A DNA stretch of 31,123 nt from a virus. The notes under the pieces are model-generated. The model did no database searches and was not told where the DNA came from. It saw only the letters and a list, made by a program, of their open reading frames with translations. Positions 2,386 to 27,831 of this stretch are shown piece by piece. Position numbers and translations under genes: made by a program. Positions within the stretch are counted from its first letter, which is position 1, and every line of letters begins with the position of its first letter. Location of the stretch: positions 1 to 31,123 of IMG/VR virus record IMGVR_UViG_3300030107_002022, one strand, 5' to 3'.

Positions 2386-2780
2386 TGGAATACGATAATA
2401 CAAACAGGGGTGCGGCTCACGCACCCTTTGAATCACAAAACCTCTTGCTTACTGGTAAGCTAGACAAAGATGGCGACAATAAACAAATTGCTATCATACA
2501 AGATACTGACAAAGAAGGACGTGATGTGCTTGTCATATACGAACGTGTCGGTGTTATGTATGGCAACAAAGATGCTGATGATGCCAAAAAGCAGCCCCAC
2601 TATTCTGGCCCTATCGATGACAACCATCGTATTGCTGGGTGGCGTGAGACTGACAAGAATGGTAAAAAATATCTATCGTTGAAACGATCAGAAAAATACA
2701 CACCACAAGTTATAGATGATGTTTCACGTGAAACAGTAGATACAAATCCAACGCCAGTTGTTGATGACATACCATTCTAA
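2385..2780 (+). CDS. SSB-like / DUF736-like protein with DDIPF tail
   Basis: A 131-aa protein. It starts MEYDNTNRGAA and continues with HYSGPIDDNHRIAGWRETDKNGKKYLSLK, which resembles the DUF736 or phage SSB-like fold (NTNRGALF ... YWISAW ... K-G-KYLSL). The C-terminus is acidic and ends DDIPF, matching the DDDIPF tip with which bacterial SSB recruits replication and repair proteins. ATG 2385 is chosen over 2379 because GAAGGG (2371-2376) is correctly spaced and the start overlaps the ERF stop. Probable role: single-strand DNA binding in the exonuclease/ERF pathway. The family assignment is tentative; the tip motif is directly visible. Confidence 0.7.
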   Translation: MEYDNTNRGAAHAPFESQNLLLTGKLDKDGDNKQIAIIQDTDKEGRDVLVIYERVGVMYGNKDADDAKKQPHYSGPIDDNHRIAGWRETDKNGKKYLSLKRSEKYTPQVIDDVSRETVDTNPTPVVDDIPF

Positions 2781-2980
2781 TGTCAGATACAATCAACATT
2801 AATATAAGTCTTGAGGATTTGGATATGGTGTATCAAGCATTAGAAGCGCATCAACCCAAACCTCATGATTTGTTTGGAACCCCAACTCTGAATATTGCAG
2901 ATATGGGATTGCATCAAAAAATTAGAGAAGTCTTGTTTAATCTAAAAGAACAAGATGATAGATGGGTGAGAGCACAATGA
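2780..2980 (+). CDS. Hypothetical helical protein
   Basis: A 66-aa protein whose ATG overlaps the upstream TAA (TAATG). It begins MSDTININISLEDLDMVYQA and is predicted helical, with a central DLFGTPTLNIADMGLHQKI segment. No domain is recognised. It sits between the SSB-like gene and another small gene in one tightly coupled operon, so it may serve recombination or replication. That is inference from position only. Confidence 0.6.
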   Translation: MSDTININISLEDLDMVYQALEAHQPKPHDLFGTPTLNIADMGLHQKIREVLFNLKEQDDRWVRAQ

Positions 2981-3165
2981 CAGTACCAACATGGGAACAG
3001 CTTATAGAGGATCTACGCATACTTGAAGTTGATACAAAACTAGATAGTCTTGGACGCAAGGTTCAAAAGAAAAATATAAATTACGGAAAGGGATCAGTAA
3101 TTTATTACAAGCAAGTATCTACTGCAGATGTCAAGCGCGTAAGAGACCGTCTCTATAGCCGTTAG
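2977..3165 (+). CDS. Hypothetical small basic protein
   Basis: A 62-aa protein starting at an ATG that overlaps the upstream stop (ATGA). The earlier in-frame codon at 2962 is rejected because it lies inside the previous gene. The protein is basic (DSLGRKVQKKNINYGKG). No family is recognised. It is the last plus-strand gene of this block and overlaps the 3' end of the convergent M15 peptidase gene by 35 bp. No terminator lies between them. Confidence 0.6.
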   Translation: MTVPTWEQLIEDLRILEVDTKLDSLGRKVQKKNINYGKGSVIYYKQVSTADVKRVRDRLYSR

Positions 3166-3580
3166 TTCTGTCATATGTAAGGGTCTGGCCGCGATTATCT
3201 TCCCAAGTGTGGCTACAATGTATCCAACCACTGTTGCCACCTGTATAACATTCTAAAATCAACTGATCAAAATCTAGATTCTCTTGTATCCACAATGCAA
3301 GATCATAGTTATCCACACCAGCAACCTCGAAGTCGGCGGCCTCACCCTTCGCATGCTGGCTGTGGATATTTGAACCTATGGCAATACATAACTCAGGACT
3401 GCGAAAGCCCGACGATACAATAAAAGAACCAAACTTATTACGTATTGGCTGCAATATATTCTTAGCCAACATTTTCATGCATTTGATATGCTCGTCAGTA
3501 GGCTCATTAGGTATGCCTTTACGCTCAGCTGTCTGGCTTTTCAGCATCTCAGCTAATGAAAAATTCTTTGACAGTTTCAT
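3131..3580 (-). CDS. M15-family (YcbK/DUF882-like) zinc peptidase, probable endolysin
   Basis: A 149-aa protein of the peptidase M15_3/DUF882-like type, which cuts peptidoglycan cross-links. Visible are SSGFRSPEL, the zinc-site region IHSQHAKGEAADFEV (H then D six residues later) and the third ligand region GWIHCSH. No signal peptide is seen, so export through the neighbouring holins is likely. ATG 3580 is preceded by AGGTG six nt before it; an in-frame GTG three codons upstream is less likely. The gene lies after a strong terminator (3638-3689), apart from the rest of the lysis genes, so its expression may depend on read-through or its own promoter. Confidence 0.85.
   Translation of the reverse strand: MKLSKNFSLAEMLKSQTAERKGIPNEPTDEHIKCMKMLAKNILQPIRNKFGSFIVSSGFRSPELCIAIGSNIHSQHAKGEAADFEVAGVDNYDLALWIQENLDFDQLILECYTGGNSGWIHCSHTWEDNRGQTLTYDRTNGYRDGLLRA
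3286..3369 (+). other. Cluster of DnaA-box-like sites inside the M15 gene
   Basis: A perfect TTATCCACA lies at 3309-3317. One-mismatch relatives are GTATCCACA at 3286-3294 and TGTGGATAT at 3361-3369 (reverse strand). A GANTC site (GATTC, 3277-3281) and GATC sites flank them. Because the phage encodes a DnaA domain-IV protein, this could be an origin or regulatory site, but it lies in coding sequence and may be chance. Another perfect TTATCCACA is at 5332-5340. Confidence 0.3.
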
Positions 3581-11543: not shown

Positions 11544-13684
11544 CTCATTGTTCCAAATGGTGATGCTGCAAGATACTCACCATTATTCCATAACTCTTGA
11601 AGTTCTCTGGTTCTCTTTTGTGCAGCCGCAGCCTCAACACGCAACTGTGCTGTTTGTTGCTGACGCAACTCATTTATCTTATTAGCAACATACTGATTGC
11701 CAACAGATAACGGTTTGCCATTAACACGAAGCAAACGCTTATCACCATCAACAAGATAATATACAGGCATTGCTGTACCCTCTCTTATATCAGGCACAAG
11801 AAACACATCTTTACCAAGTGTAGGGCGTTTGCCATCAGGCATATTGGGAAGAAGCTCTAATCTTCTAGCAACACCTTCTTCAAAGATTTTCATAGTAGCT
11901 GTATCTGGATATGCAGCTTCAGGTGCATATTGCGATCTGCCAATAGTATCATGCAGAAAGTTGCTTTCCTTAAATACAGAATCAGCAGCTGTTTTAAGAA
12001 TCTTTTTAACTTGCTTTTTATCCATTGTAAGCAAAAGATCATCTGTAAATGATGCATAAAAAGCTAATTCTTGTGGAGATGCATCATCATTAATACCTGA
12101 TATAAAGTCACGCACAGCATCTGGTGCAGACTTATCAGATCCCAATGCTGTCTTTATACGTTGATTACGTGCCTCAGCACCACCAGGAGCATTTGCATTT
12201 TGTCTATAATTATTTAAAAATTCAGGAACAGCATCATTGCCTAGGGTATCTCGAACATTCAAAAGCGTTTCATATAAAACAATCGTATCTTTGTCTAAGC
12301 CACGAGTAAGAACCTCTGAAAACACAGCCCCACCCTCGCTGCCACGCATAAAACGTGTAGCTTGCTCATAGATATTTAAAGCACCAACAATCTCTGTAGA
12401 TGGCATTGATGATACAGTTTCAAGATAATCTATTGCAACTTCAGGTAATGGGCCGCTTTGATTAAACATTACAGCCTTAAATGCACCATAATGCTTATCA
12501 TGTGCGCGACGTTGTATGTCATTTGTTGGCGGCTGAAGTGCAGCAGCTGCTGTATTACCAAAGTCAGTGGCAGATTTAATATTATATCCCGACATAATAT
12601 TATCACTATCGGTTTTTGAAACAGATCTGCCACTATTCAAATTACGTAACGCTATTTCAGATGCACGCTCACTTTTATGATTGTTATATTCTTCACTAAT
12701 AGTACCTTGTAGCTTTGTTAAATCACCAGCAAGTTTCTCACCCTGCTCTTTGAATCCAGGCAATTTTAAAGTTGCTTCATTAAAACCAGCACGTGCTAAT
12801 ATTGATCTCATCTTTGGATCAATTTTTTCAAAACCTCCACCCGGACTTAACACAATAGCCATATTATTTAAAACATCAGATAAAAATGATGTTTTACGAG
12901 ATGGATCTTCATCTACAAATTGAGAAGCTGCACGATTACTTATATTGCTTATCAATCCTGTTGCAAAAAGAAAATTTGCCTCAGCTGTAACATTTGCTAA
13001 ATACGTTGTACTTAATTCTGAAAACTCTGCAACAGCATCTCTAGCTCTTCCTATTATATCTTTACGCTTTTGCTCAGCTGGCCCCTGTCCACCTTCTTGC
13101 TTTGCAAGTTCTTCAATAATTGATTGCTCGGCTTCAATAGCAGCTACTGCATTTGTTGCAGCTATCTTTCTATTATGATCTACTTGATCAGTGTAAAGTT
13201 TTCCTGCGTATTGCTTACTCGTTACAGCACCAATGCTTGAAACAAGATTGCTGAATTGACCAGAGGTATCAATGGTTTTTTGTAAATATTCATTAAAAGC
13301 AACCTCAAAGCCTGTTGGGTCTCTTTCATGATCTGCAGCAATCTTTAAAGCCTCTGCATCAATCTCAAGAGATACAGCTTCTAAAAATCTTTTACGCGCA
13401 ATAGGTTCGTAATATTTTTCTGCTGTTGGAGATAAATCTTTTGGAATCTCTGGAAATTCAATTTTTCCAGTCTTATCATTTTTGACACTTATTGCAGCAA
13501 GAGAGGCAGCTTCTTGTCCTTTTTTCTTTTCATTATCATAGGCAAACTGAAATGCCGCTTCCCTTAAACGGCGACCAGATGTAGCAAGTTGCTGCCCTAT
13601 ACGAGCAGCATTGTCACCCATAGGAACAATACCTATTGCTCCAATGCGTGTTTCAGCTGGTCTTAATACTTTTATTTCTGCCAT
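11540..13684 (-). CDS. Internal virion protein, gp15-like
   Basis: A 714-aa, mainly helical protein, close in size to T7 gp15 (747 aa) and in the same gene order, between the gp14-like and gp16-like genes. It starts MAEIKVLRPAETRIGAIGIV with LATSGRRLREAAFQFA, and the C-terminus is alanine/glutamine-rich (QQQTAQLRVEAAAAQKRTRELQ). The assignment rests on size, order and composition more than on motifs. It would be a core or ejection protein. Stop and start codons overlap those of its neighbours. Confidence 0.75.
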   Translation of the reverse strand: MAEIKVLRPAETRIGAIGIVPMGDNAARIGQQLATSGRRLREAAFQFAYDNEKKKGQEAASLAAISVKNDKTGKIEFPEIPKDLSPTAEKYYEPIARKRFLEAVSLEIDAEALKIAADHERDPTGFEVAFNEYLQKTIDTSGQFSNLVSSIGAVTSKQYAGKLYTDQVDHNRKIAATNAVAAIEAEQSIIEELAKQEGGQGPAEQKRKDIIGRARDAVAEFSELSTTYLANVTAEANFLFATGLISNISNRAASQFVDEDPSRKTSFLSDVLNNMAIVLSPGGGFEKIDPKMRSILARAGFNEATLKLPGFKEQGEKLAGDLTKLQGTISEEYNNHKSERASEIALRNLNSGRSVSKTDSDNIMSGYNIKSATDFGNTAAAALQPPTNDIQRRAHDKHYGAFKAVMFNQSGPLPEVAIDYLETVSSMPSTEIVGALNIYEQATRFMRGSEGGAVFSEVLTRGLDKDTIVLYETLLNVRDTLGNDAVPEFLNNYRQNANAPGGAEARNQRIKTALGSDKSAPDAVRDFISGINDDASPQELAFYASFTDDLLLTMDKKQVKKILKTAADSVFKESNFLHDTIGRSQYAPEAAYPDTATMKIFEEGVARRLELLPNMPDGKRPTLGKDVFLVPDIREGTAMPVYYLVDGDKRLLRVNGKPLSVGNQYVANKINELRQQQTAQLRVEAAAAQKRTRELQELWNNGEYLAASPFGTMR

Positions 13685-26367: not shown

Positions 26368-26493
26368 GGTGCATATATGCTACAGAGTTCTGATGGGAAT
26401 TGCAAGAGAGAAGGTGGGGGTCGAGGGGGACACGGTCTAATTTTTGGGGGCCACCGCTGCGCTTGACCATCTACGCTCGATACTTTCGCCAGC

Positions 26494-26526
26494 GCATAGC
26501 AACGCAATCTAGGATTGCTGCTATGC
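26494..26526. repeat. Hairpin downstream of TerS (1)
   Basis: gcatagca (26494-26501) pairs with tgctatgc (26519-26526), and gcaatc (26504-26509) with gattgc (26513-26518), giving 14 bp with a 2-nt bulge and a 3-nt loop. It lies in the 217-bp gene-free stretch 26368-26584. Confidence 0.65.
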
Positions 26527-26537
26527 ACAGCTAAAGT

Positions 26538-26572
26538 GCAAGGCTATGCATTGCTTTGCAATGCACCCTTGC
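26538..26572. repeat. Hairpin downstream of TerS (2)
   Basis: tgcattgc (26547-26554) pairs with gcaatgca (26558-26565) around ttt, and outer arms gcaagg (26538-26543) and ccttgc (26567-26572) extend it. With the previous hairpin it fills the end of the TerS transcript; without a T-run it is more likely a processing or binding structure. TGCAAGGCTA here recurs at 27213-27222. Confidence 0.65.
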
Positions 26573-26584
26573 TCCGCTTCGATG

Positions 26585-26959
26585 CTAGCTCAGGTCGATG
26601 GCCACAGTTATGTCGCCAGCGTGCATGTGCATGTGTCGCTCGGGAGCCTTGAACCCAGCTCTGTCCAAGATATCTTTGCTCGCTTCCAGCTGTACGTACT
26701 CACTCTTGGCTCCCTGAGCGAGCTGCACTAGCCGTGCAGCGGCAGTCGTAGCGTTGATGCCGAGTGTCTCCGCCACTCGCTGCATCATGTACGCCTGCAC
26801 ATGCTGCAACCGCAAAGCCTTACTGGCTGTCACTCTTCCACTCTCACCGCTTGCATATCCAGCTTCATGCGCGGCTTCTTTGATGCTACAGCCTGTTGCT
26901 ACGAGAGTATCAACCAGCCGCGCTTGTTTGCTGGTCACTGCAAGCTGTTTCACTGCCAT
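26585..26959 (-). CDS. terS: Terminase small subunit (TerS)
   Basis: A 124-aa protein. The N-terminal helix-turn-helix is near residues 19-45 (CSIKEAAHEAGYASGESGRV, then TASKALR). The centre is helical (MMQRVAETLGINATTAAARLVQLAQGAKSEY). The C-terminus ASKDILDRAGFKAPERHMHMHAGDITVAIDLS is typical of this TerS family. It recognises the packaging start site and passes DNA to TerL. AGGA precedes the ATG by 9 nt. Its sequence is visibly richer in G and C than the neighbouring late genes, and structured repeats flank it on both sides. Confidence 0.9.
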   Translation of the reverse strand: MAVKQLAVTSKQARLVDTLVATGCSIKEAAHEAGYASGESGRVTASKALRLQHVQAYMMQRVAETLGINATTAAARLVQLAQGAKSEYVQLEASKDILDRAGFKAPERHMHMHAGDITVAIDLS

Positions 26960-27029
26960 CTACACATCCTCACTAATCGTTGAACCCCCCCTATGTCCCC
27001 CCCTTTTACACTCCTTCGCCACCGCTTGT

Positions 27030-27120
27030 CAACGCACAAGCGAGCAAGAAGCCCTCACAAAGCACTCACAGCGTTCAGACAACCTTTGGGGCGGCTTCTT
27101 TGCTCGCTTCCGTTGCGTTG
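27030..27120. repeat. Interrupted inverted repeat in the divergent region
   Basis: aagcgagcaagaagcc (27038-27053) matches the complement of ggcttctttgctcgctt (27093-27109) with one inserted base. Outer arms caacgca (27030-27036) and tgcgttg (27114-27120) extend it. A 14-bp part, ctttgctcgcttcc, also occurs inside terS at 26674-26687. Confidence 0.65.
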
Positions 27121-27159
27121 GCTAGCTGAGTTGCTGATCCATGCTATACCCCCTTGGAT

Positions 27160-27335
27160 CTAGTGGGGGACAGCCCCCTCGGATAGTCTGCATGCCGCAC
27201 CTCCGCTCAGTATGCAAGGCTAAACGCGCTACCCACGCTTGCCGAATCATAGATTCGGATCGTGGGTGGCCTTGCATACTGATCTGAGGCACGCCCCTTG
27301 CCTATCTTTACCGAGGGGGCTTTACCCCTCACTAG
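27160..27335. repeat. Large nested inverted-repeat structure between terS and the plus-strand operon
   Basis: Six pairs of arms nest in order: ctagtg (27160-27165)/cactag (27330-27335), agccccctcgg (27172-27182)/ccgagggggct (27311-27321), a 13-bp pair cagtatgcaaggc (27208-27220)/gccttgcatactg (27269-27281), acccacg (27231-27237)/cgtgggt (27261-27267), and ccgaatc (27242-27248)/gattcgg (27252-27258), with gggg/cccc between the first two. The gap 26960-27354 holds no gene. The structure ends just before the AAGGAGG of the gene at 27355, so it would be part of that mRNA leader or act as a DNA element. Confidence 0.8.
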
Positions 27336-27354
27336 CTCATCAAGGAGGTATATC

Positions 27355-27831
27355 ATGGGCAACTCAACTAACCACTTCACTTCAGCTTACACTTCAGCCT
27401 TCCCAAAGAACGATCTGAACGGAGGTAGATCCTCTACCTCACTCACACAGTTTCTCATTCGCAAGGCTGTCGAGCAAGCTGAGTGGCTCATCGAGCAAAA
27501 GAAGAAAGACATTGACGATCTTGTGCAAGACAAGATCCAGCTCGAAGGAGCCGATCAGATTTCCGATGACAAGCTGGTCATCATCTGCGCCAGATATGGC
27601 GCAGCACGTGGAGGCATCCACAATGATGACCTTGCGGCAGATCGTATCACCGAACGTATGATCAATCTCGACCAAGAGATTGAAATGTGCGAGGACTACA
27701 TCGCCGACCACAAAGAGGCGTTCAAGAAATGCACAGGTGATACCTTCACCCCAAAGGTCAAAGCTGCCAAGAAGCCATCTGTAGATCCAGATCGCGCAGC
27801 AGCTGTCATGGCAAAATACAAGGTTGCATAG
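27355..27831 (+). CDS. Hypothetical helical protein, first gene of the plus block
   Basis: A 158-aa protein of unknown function. The ATG at 27355 follows AAGGAGG. The first 30 residues are Ser/Thr/Asn-rich (MGNSTNHFTSAYTSAF) and then long charged helices follow (RKAVEQAEWLIEQKKKDIDDLVQDK; LDQEIEMCEDYIADHKEAFKKC), with a basic tail. It is followed by two hairpins, the second a clear terminator, so it forms a single-gene transcript. Like terS it is G/C-richer than the rest. Such a position suits an early regulator or host-interaction protein, but this is inference. Confidence 0.7.
   Translation: MGNSTNHFTSAYTSAFPKNDLNGGRSSTSLTQFLIRKAVEQAEWLIEQKKKDIDDLVQDKIQLEGADQISDDKLVIICARYGAARGGIHNDDLAADRITERMINLDQEIEMCEDYIADHKEAFKKCTGDTFTPKVKAAKKPSVDPDRAAAVMAKYKVA

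Follow-up and report, generated by a model that had tools for sequence, protein, structure and literature searches.

A giant hairpin upstream of terS in a marine phage family pairs the start of a divergent gene with its degenerate inverted copy

We analyzed a stretch of viral DNA of 31,123 bases (a whole IMG/VR virus record, hereafter the window) and found a giant imperfect palindrome upstream of the terminase small subunit gene terS. One arm of the palindrome covers the start of a divergently transcribed gene, and the other is a degenerate inverted copy of that gene that co-varies with it. The element is family-wide, in a widespread marine phage family, and we are close to certain that it is a conserved structure. 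Judging from the sequences, we lean slightly towards an undescribed class of phage RNA, in which a live gene and its inverted decoy would form a hairpin that co-evolves across the family and may serve as a self-locked antisense or as long double-stranded RNA (dsRNA) at the early/late switch.

The palindrome lies between two divergent sets of genes. The structural cluster runs leftward from position 26959 and includes terS, its first gene (26585-26959, minus strand; PF03592 at 4e-8, phrog_2538 and phrog_51), terL, a head-tail connector, an internal virion protein and an endolysin. The rightward genes include a YqaJ exonuclease, ERF, DUF932 and a protein with a DnaA C-terminal domain. We call the leftward (minus) strand "late", a timing taken from gene content. 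A late promoter-like site for terS (TTGACA-18-TAAAAG, 27003-27032, minus strand), the TTGACA of which is kept in most relatives, lies just outside the hairpin. The nearest isolate is Pelagibacter phage EXVC031P Hodr (67% for terL, 61.5% for terS), and a search of INPHARED for similar DNA returned none.

Some further features of this neighborhood deserve mention. Just past the terS promoter-like site, the minus strand of the window carries a double G7 tract (GGGGGGGACATAGGGGGGG, 26985-27003), which is possibly a G-quadruplex at the late mRNA start or a terminase site; two G-runs occur at this site family-wide, for instance GGGGGGGAACACAAGGGGGGG in L047, L048 and L039. Between the Extensin-like gene and terS (26460-26590) there are several short hairpin-like repeats with CAAGGCTATGCATTGC-type sequence. 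In the early region, the small protein encoded at 30021-30338 matches the C-terminal DNA-binding domain of DnaA (PF08299, 2e-12) and is a possible replication initiator or mimic of the host DnaA.

DNA self-alignment places the whole palindrome at 27072-27421 (65% over 350 bp, 82 bits), and the runner-up palindrome of the window scores 36 bits. The first-pass annotation had described nested arms around about 27250, and these are present (for instance, 27165-27182 with 27311-27328 and 27200-27220 with 27269-27289). The extent it gave, 27160-27335, proved too short: the nest goes on outside it with the arm pairs 27139-27156/27341-27358 and 27119-27134/27359-27374, and 27119-27374 matches its own reverse complement over the full length (E = 5e-21). 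As RNA, 27160-27335 folded at -97.9 kcal/mol (z = -10.5), and as DNA at -52.6 (z = -9.8); none of 200 shuffled sequences did equally well. For 27110-27385 the plus strand folded at -139 kcal/mol (z = -11.5) and the minus strand at -161.5 (z = -13.9). Overall, shuffle z values for the window fold ranged from -10 to -15, with the minus strand, that of terS, the better-folding form (-200.6 for 366 nt of the late strand, compared with -167.1 for the other strand). The palindrome is thus not a chance arrangement and is larger than first described.

Read on the late strand, the right arm (27247-27421) is the antisense of the divergent gene from its leader through the ribosome-binding site and start codon to the 66th nucleotide. 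The ribosome-binding site and ATG of the gene (27344-27357, plus strand) lie inside this arm. The mirror arm (27072-27246) is identified as its degenerate inverted copy by sequence, arm alignment and compensatory changes; its minus strand carries a copy of the ribosome-binding site (AAGGGGG, 27155-27149) and an ATG (27142-27140) that opens a six-codon reading frame. The divergent gene (27355-27831, plus strand) encodes a fast-evolving, alpha-helical protein of 158 amino acids without a known family. Searches of PHROGs and Pfam gave no match, and its AF2 model (pLDDT 82, all helix) had no Foldseek match at E < 0.001. Identity of the divergent protein among relatives spans 13-96%. Its very fast evolution is seen in the window and in the counterparts in L006-L084; for instance, L006 and L007 share 98% identity with the window in terS and 48% in the divergent protein.

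We fetched 80 terS relatives and scored palindromes in the 72 whose sequence reached far enough upstream. In 39 of these 72, a palindrome scoring at least 45 bits lies upstream of terS. With a fixed interval of 400 nt upstream of terS, 41 out of 54 relatives had z < -4, compared with 0 out of 50 downstream control stretches; several relatives fail because their palindromes are so much longer that this interval holds just one arm. The longest members (L035, L047, L048, L051, L055 and L074) have palindromes of 1.17-1.30 kb that span the divergent gene together with its terminator and fold into stems of about 470-505 pairs. The helices of L048 and L074 are more uniform in length than random ones, which is less clear in others. 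L047 is a plain example: its gene occupies 2763-3182 (minus strand), and a sense copy, decayed and G/T-rich, begins at about 3432. The divergent gene is annotated in 20 representatives; taking palindrome ends as the ends of the DNA alignments, its start codon is inside the palindrome in 19 of them (the exception is L028). The palindrome ends 63-69 nt into the coding sequence in 8 of the 20 and past the stop codon in 6; the short members mirror just the first 27-179 nt of the gene. The cultured Hodr has a palindrome (11942-12635 of OQ414635, our L086) that passes through the terS promoter into the terS coding sequence and, at its opposite end, takes in 260 nt of the divergent gene. The OQ414635 record also bears locus tags named for another phage, EXVC032PBaldr.

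An assembly artefact was rejected, as the palindrome is found, with compensatory changes, in many independent metagenomes, in MAG contigs and in one isolate. We also rejected a general property of related phages, as MEP301 and HTVC111P have no large palindrome of this kind. Other arrangements exist among the terS relatives. A subgroup (L008, L017, L018, L019 and L045) has a different conserved tip, GATTCGCGGAAGGAACCGATTTGCAAAGCAAATTGGAAGGAACCG, and, where a reading frame was called, a longer unrelated divergent protein. Five others (L027, L029, L031, L032 and L038) have several separate strong hairpins and no single large palindrome, and most of these encode a different divergent protein of 207 amino acids.

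Neither outcome that the first-pass annotation named as refuting was observed: the fold is better than that of shuffled sequence, and in relatives the arms remain paired. Compensatory changes exceed those in controls with slid partners both in the long members and in the window's own clade. For nine long members, with the late-strand stem of L087 as reference, 96.3% of cells are paired and 67 out of 475 stem pairs are compensated on both sides, compared with 5-11 in the slid controls. Such controls keep the relatedness of the sequences, and a structure taken from one member favors the true register, so that the double-change counts weigh more than the percentage paired. Between L087 and L098, double changes keep pairing in 47 cases and break it in 3. 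The window clade has 34 compensated pairs, compared with 5-10 when slid, and 28 of the 79 pairs in its RNAalifold structure are compensated. One case comes near to showing the intermediate: the window has GAGTTGC/GCAACTC, L002 and L003 have GTGTTGC/GCAACAC, and in L001 the change is on one side.

Double changes could also arise if one arm serves as template for the correction of the other. We considered such mutational upkeep without function, in which repeated fold-back template switching makes inverted duplications and corrects arm against arm. The arms are self-copies, their boundaries differ among phages, and 30 of 49 double substitutions involve transversions, which are easy in one templated step. 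Under this explanation, however, repair should be perfect, and G.U would not outnumber A.C 3:1 on a single strand (see below). Arm identity is about 61-76% in all the long palindromes, none of which is a fresh, nearly perfect copy. We regard it as improbable.

The tip of the hairpin (27200-27289) is exchangeable. The divergent proteins of L001-L003 are 91-96% identical to that of the window and the outer arms are near-identical, while the inner 90 bp are of unrelated sequence that also folds on itself. The tip type of the window is found again in L023, and other tip types also recur between phages. Because swapped tips still self-fold and types recur, the tip is a module constrained to be self-complementary.

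In order to assess which strand pairs, we classed the arm mismatches on DNA alignments that score G.T and A.C alike. Across 26 non-redundant palindromes, the late strand has 455 G.U and 146 A.C mismatches, with the excess towards G.U in 24 palindromes and in the opposite direction in none (the window alone, with 11 and 4, is by itself not significant). Recent one-sided transitions, counted from a pair list blind to wobble, number 40 against 10 and occur in both arms. Folding energies favor the late strand by 22-43 kcal/mol in all window-clade relatives tested; in L047 the late strand reaches -749 kcal/mol and the other strand -509, and five more long members lean likewise. Strand-biased mutation as the cause of the G.U excess is unsupported by four-fold sites in late genes (A.31, C.16, G.13, T.40), which show no drift towards G+T, and early genes behave likewise.

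Because G.U exceeds A.C on the late strand, the element very probably pairs as a single strand, a late-direction RNA or single-stranded DNA (ssDNA). The cruciform suggested at first does not account for these data, as both strands would serve it equally and a bias in 24 of 26 palindromes would not be predicted. The suggestion of a structured leader RNA for the gene at 27355 fares better in one respect: a structured RNA is supported, while fold energies and G.U mismatches assign it to the minus strand, in the late direction. If structure in the rightward mRNA were selected against, the same changes could be favored; we do not think that this is the main force, because the rightward strand remains extremely stable (-509 kcal/mol in L047).

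The hairpin could instead control translation, with a rightward mRNA that starts left of the palindrome burying its own ribosome-binding site. Both the ribosome-binding site and the start codon of the divergent gene do sit in the stem, and the plus strand folds strongly too (z = -11.5). This strand is nonetheless consistently the weaker one, as the window-clade energies show, and the wobble changes favor the opposite strand; of the explanations weighed here, we give this one the least credence.

Whether the pairing strand is RNA or DNA is less clear-cut. Pairing in ssDNA likewise prefers G.T, the best-tolerated DNA mismatch. DNA folding of the window element is also strongly non-random (z = -9.8, as above), and the palindrome adjoins terS and the early/late divide, as might suit a replication or packaging intermediate selected as late-strand ssDNA. 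Known origin or pac features were looked for and none was found, stems of 500 pairs are far beyond any ssDNA signal known to us, and the palindrome boundaries track the transcription unit of a gene. We consider selection on ssDNA hardly likely, and RNA, the simpler reading, is probably the pairing molecule. As for the packaging element proposed in the first-pass annotation, nothing ties the palindrome to a cos or pac function except its adjacency to terS; it might act in replication by way of one of its strands alone.

In Rfam, the window had no match at gathering score, 26900-27500 had none at E <= 1, and seven relatives had none at gathering score. No terminator-like site was called in the palindrome on either strand, which rejects an intrinsic terminator, and a MITE or transposon end was rejected since a search for repeated copies returned just the palindrome itself and its own reverse complement. 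The element does have the compensatory changes above controls that mark a conserved structured RNA in the generic sense. It likewise has arms that come from a coding gene, as in an inverted-duplication foldback; this is seen in the six whole-gene palindromes.

The structure, co-variation, strand bias, tip exchange and overlap with the translation-start region are direct observations. As to what they serve, our tentative proposal is that the palindrome is selected as a self-complementary late strand, likely a leftward RNA over the start of the divergent gene, that acts as a self-neutralized antisense. Such an RNA would be transcribed towards terS across the start of the divergent gene (the whole gene in some relatives). 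Its 5' arm would be antisense to the divergent gene, and its 3' arm, the degenerate inverted copy, would base-pair with the antisense arm. If unlocked, the leftward RNA would anneal to the mRNA of the divergent gene and lead to silencing or exposure to RNase III. The mirror arm would hold the antisense folded on itself, so that the rightward and leftward transcription units could be used simultaneously. Several results count against this role, which we put forward for the early/late divide at somewhat less than even confidence. We saw no enrichment of sigma70-like late-strand promoters just outside the palindrome (mean percentile 0.49). The conserved terS promoter is on the far side of the hairpin, so terS mRNA from there would not contain it. 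Most of the gene is unmirrored in the short members, and the Hodr palindrome enters the terS coding sequence.

An unlikely, though not negligible, reading is a trans role for the hairpin RNA of the late strand: as long dsRNA it could, for instance, be a decoy that titrates RNase III or a host dsRNA-sensing defence, with length and pairing mattering and not sequence. In favor of this reading, pairing persists although the sequence is not conserved, the stems are as long as about 500 pairs and the tips are exchangeable; fast evolution, seen in the divergent gene, is also common among defence-related modules. Mismatches also hold perfect Watson-Crick runs in the long stems to at most 13-18 pairs. 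Left unexplained by such a decoy is why the arms are always the neighboring gene and its start region.

Recurring at one site in a widespread family of marine phages, the element is relevant to how opposite transcripts that overlap are kept separate in phages and to whether long dsRNA is made on purpose. It also bears on palindrome survival, since mismatches and G.U pairs prevent a perfect DNA palindrome while the late strand still pairs; the arm identity of the long palindromes is consistent with such a balance. The smaller version in the cultured Hodr makes these ideas experimentally testable. To our knowledge, a stem of ~500 bp co-evolving with a coding gene would rank among the largest single-helix conserved structures of phages. 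A literature search for such hairpins returned nothing relevant, which, as it covered open-access papers only, is weak evidence of novelty.

Known systems share some of these features. The OOP RNA of phage lambda is a leftward cis-antisense RNA that overlaps an opposite gene, as the putative leftward RNA would; unlike OOP, the latter would be self-locked by the mirror copy of the target that it bears. A podovirus-like phage, T7, also has hairpins that separate transcription units, namely the RNase III processing sites in its early and late mRNAs. Those hairpins are short, whereas the stems described here have about 100-500 pairs. GOLLD and ROOL are likewise associated with phages. Together with OLE, they belong to the large ornate RNAs of phages and bacteria whose structures have been described (PMC12286853). 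The phage hairpin, as a putative RNA, resembles them in its very large structure, but they have conserved sequence motifs and branched folds, whereas it is a single stem, essentially without branches, that shows little conservation of sequence and matches no Rfam family. The nearest parallels, besides these RNAs, are the proto-MIRNA foldbacks of plants, explained by an inverted-duplication model (PMC3237417, PMC1790633); their arms likewise go back to a protein-coding gene that was duplicated in inverted orientation, and have since diverged. A Dicer-type pathway is not expected in the host of these phages, and the phage element differs further in that one arm is the live gene itself, with ongoing compensatory change and strand-specific wobble. 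This design, a live gene facing its mirror, is absent from both the plant foldbacks and the large ornate RNAs.
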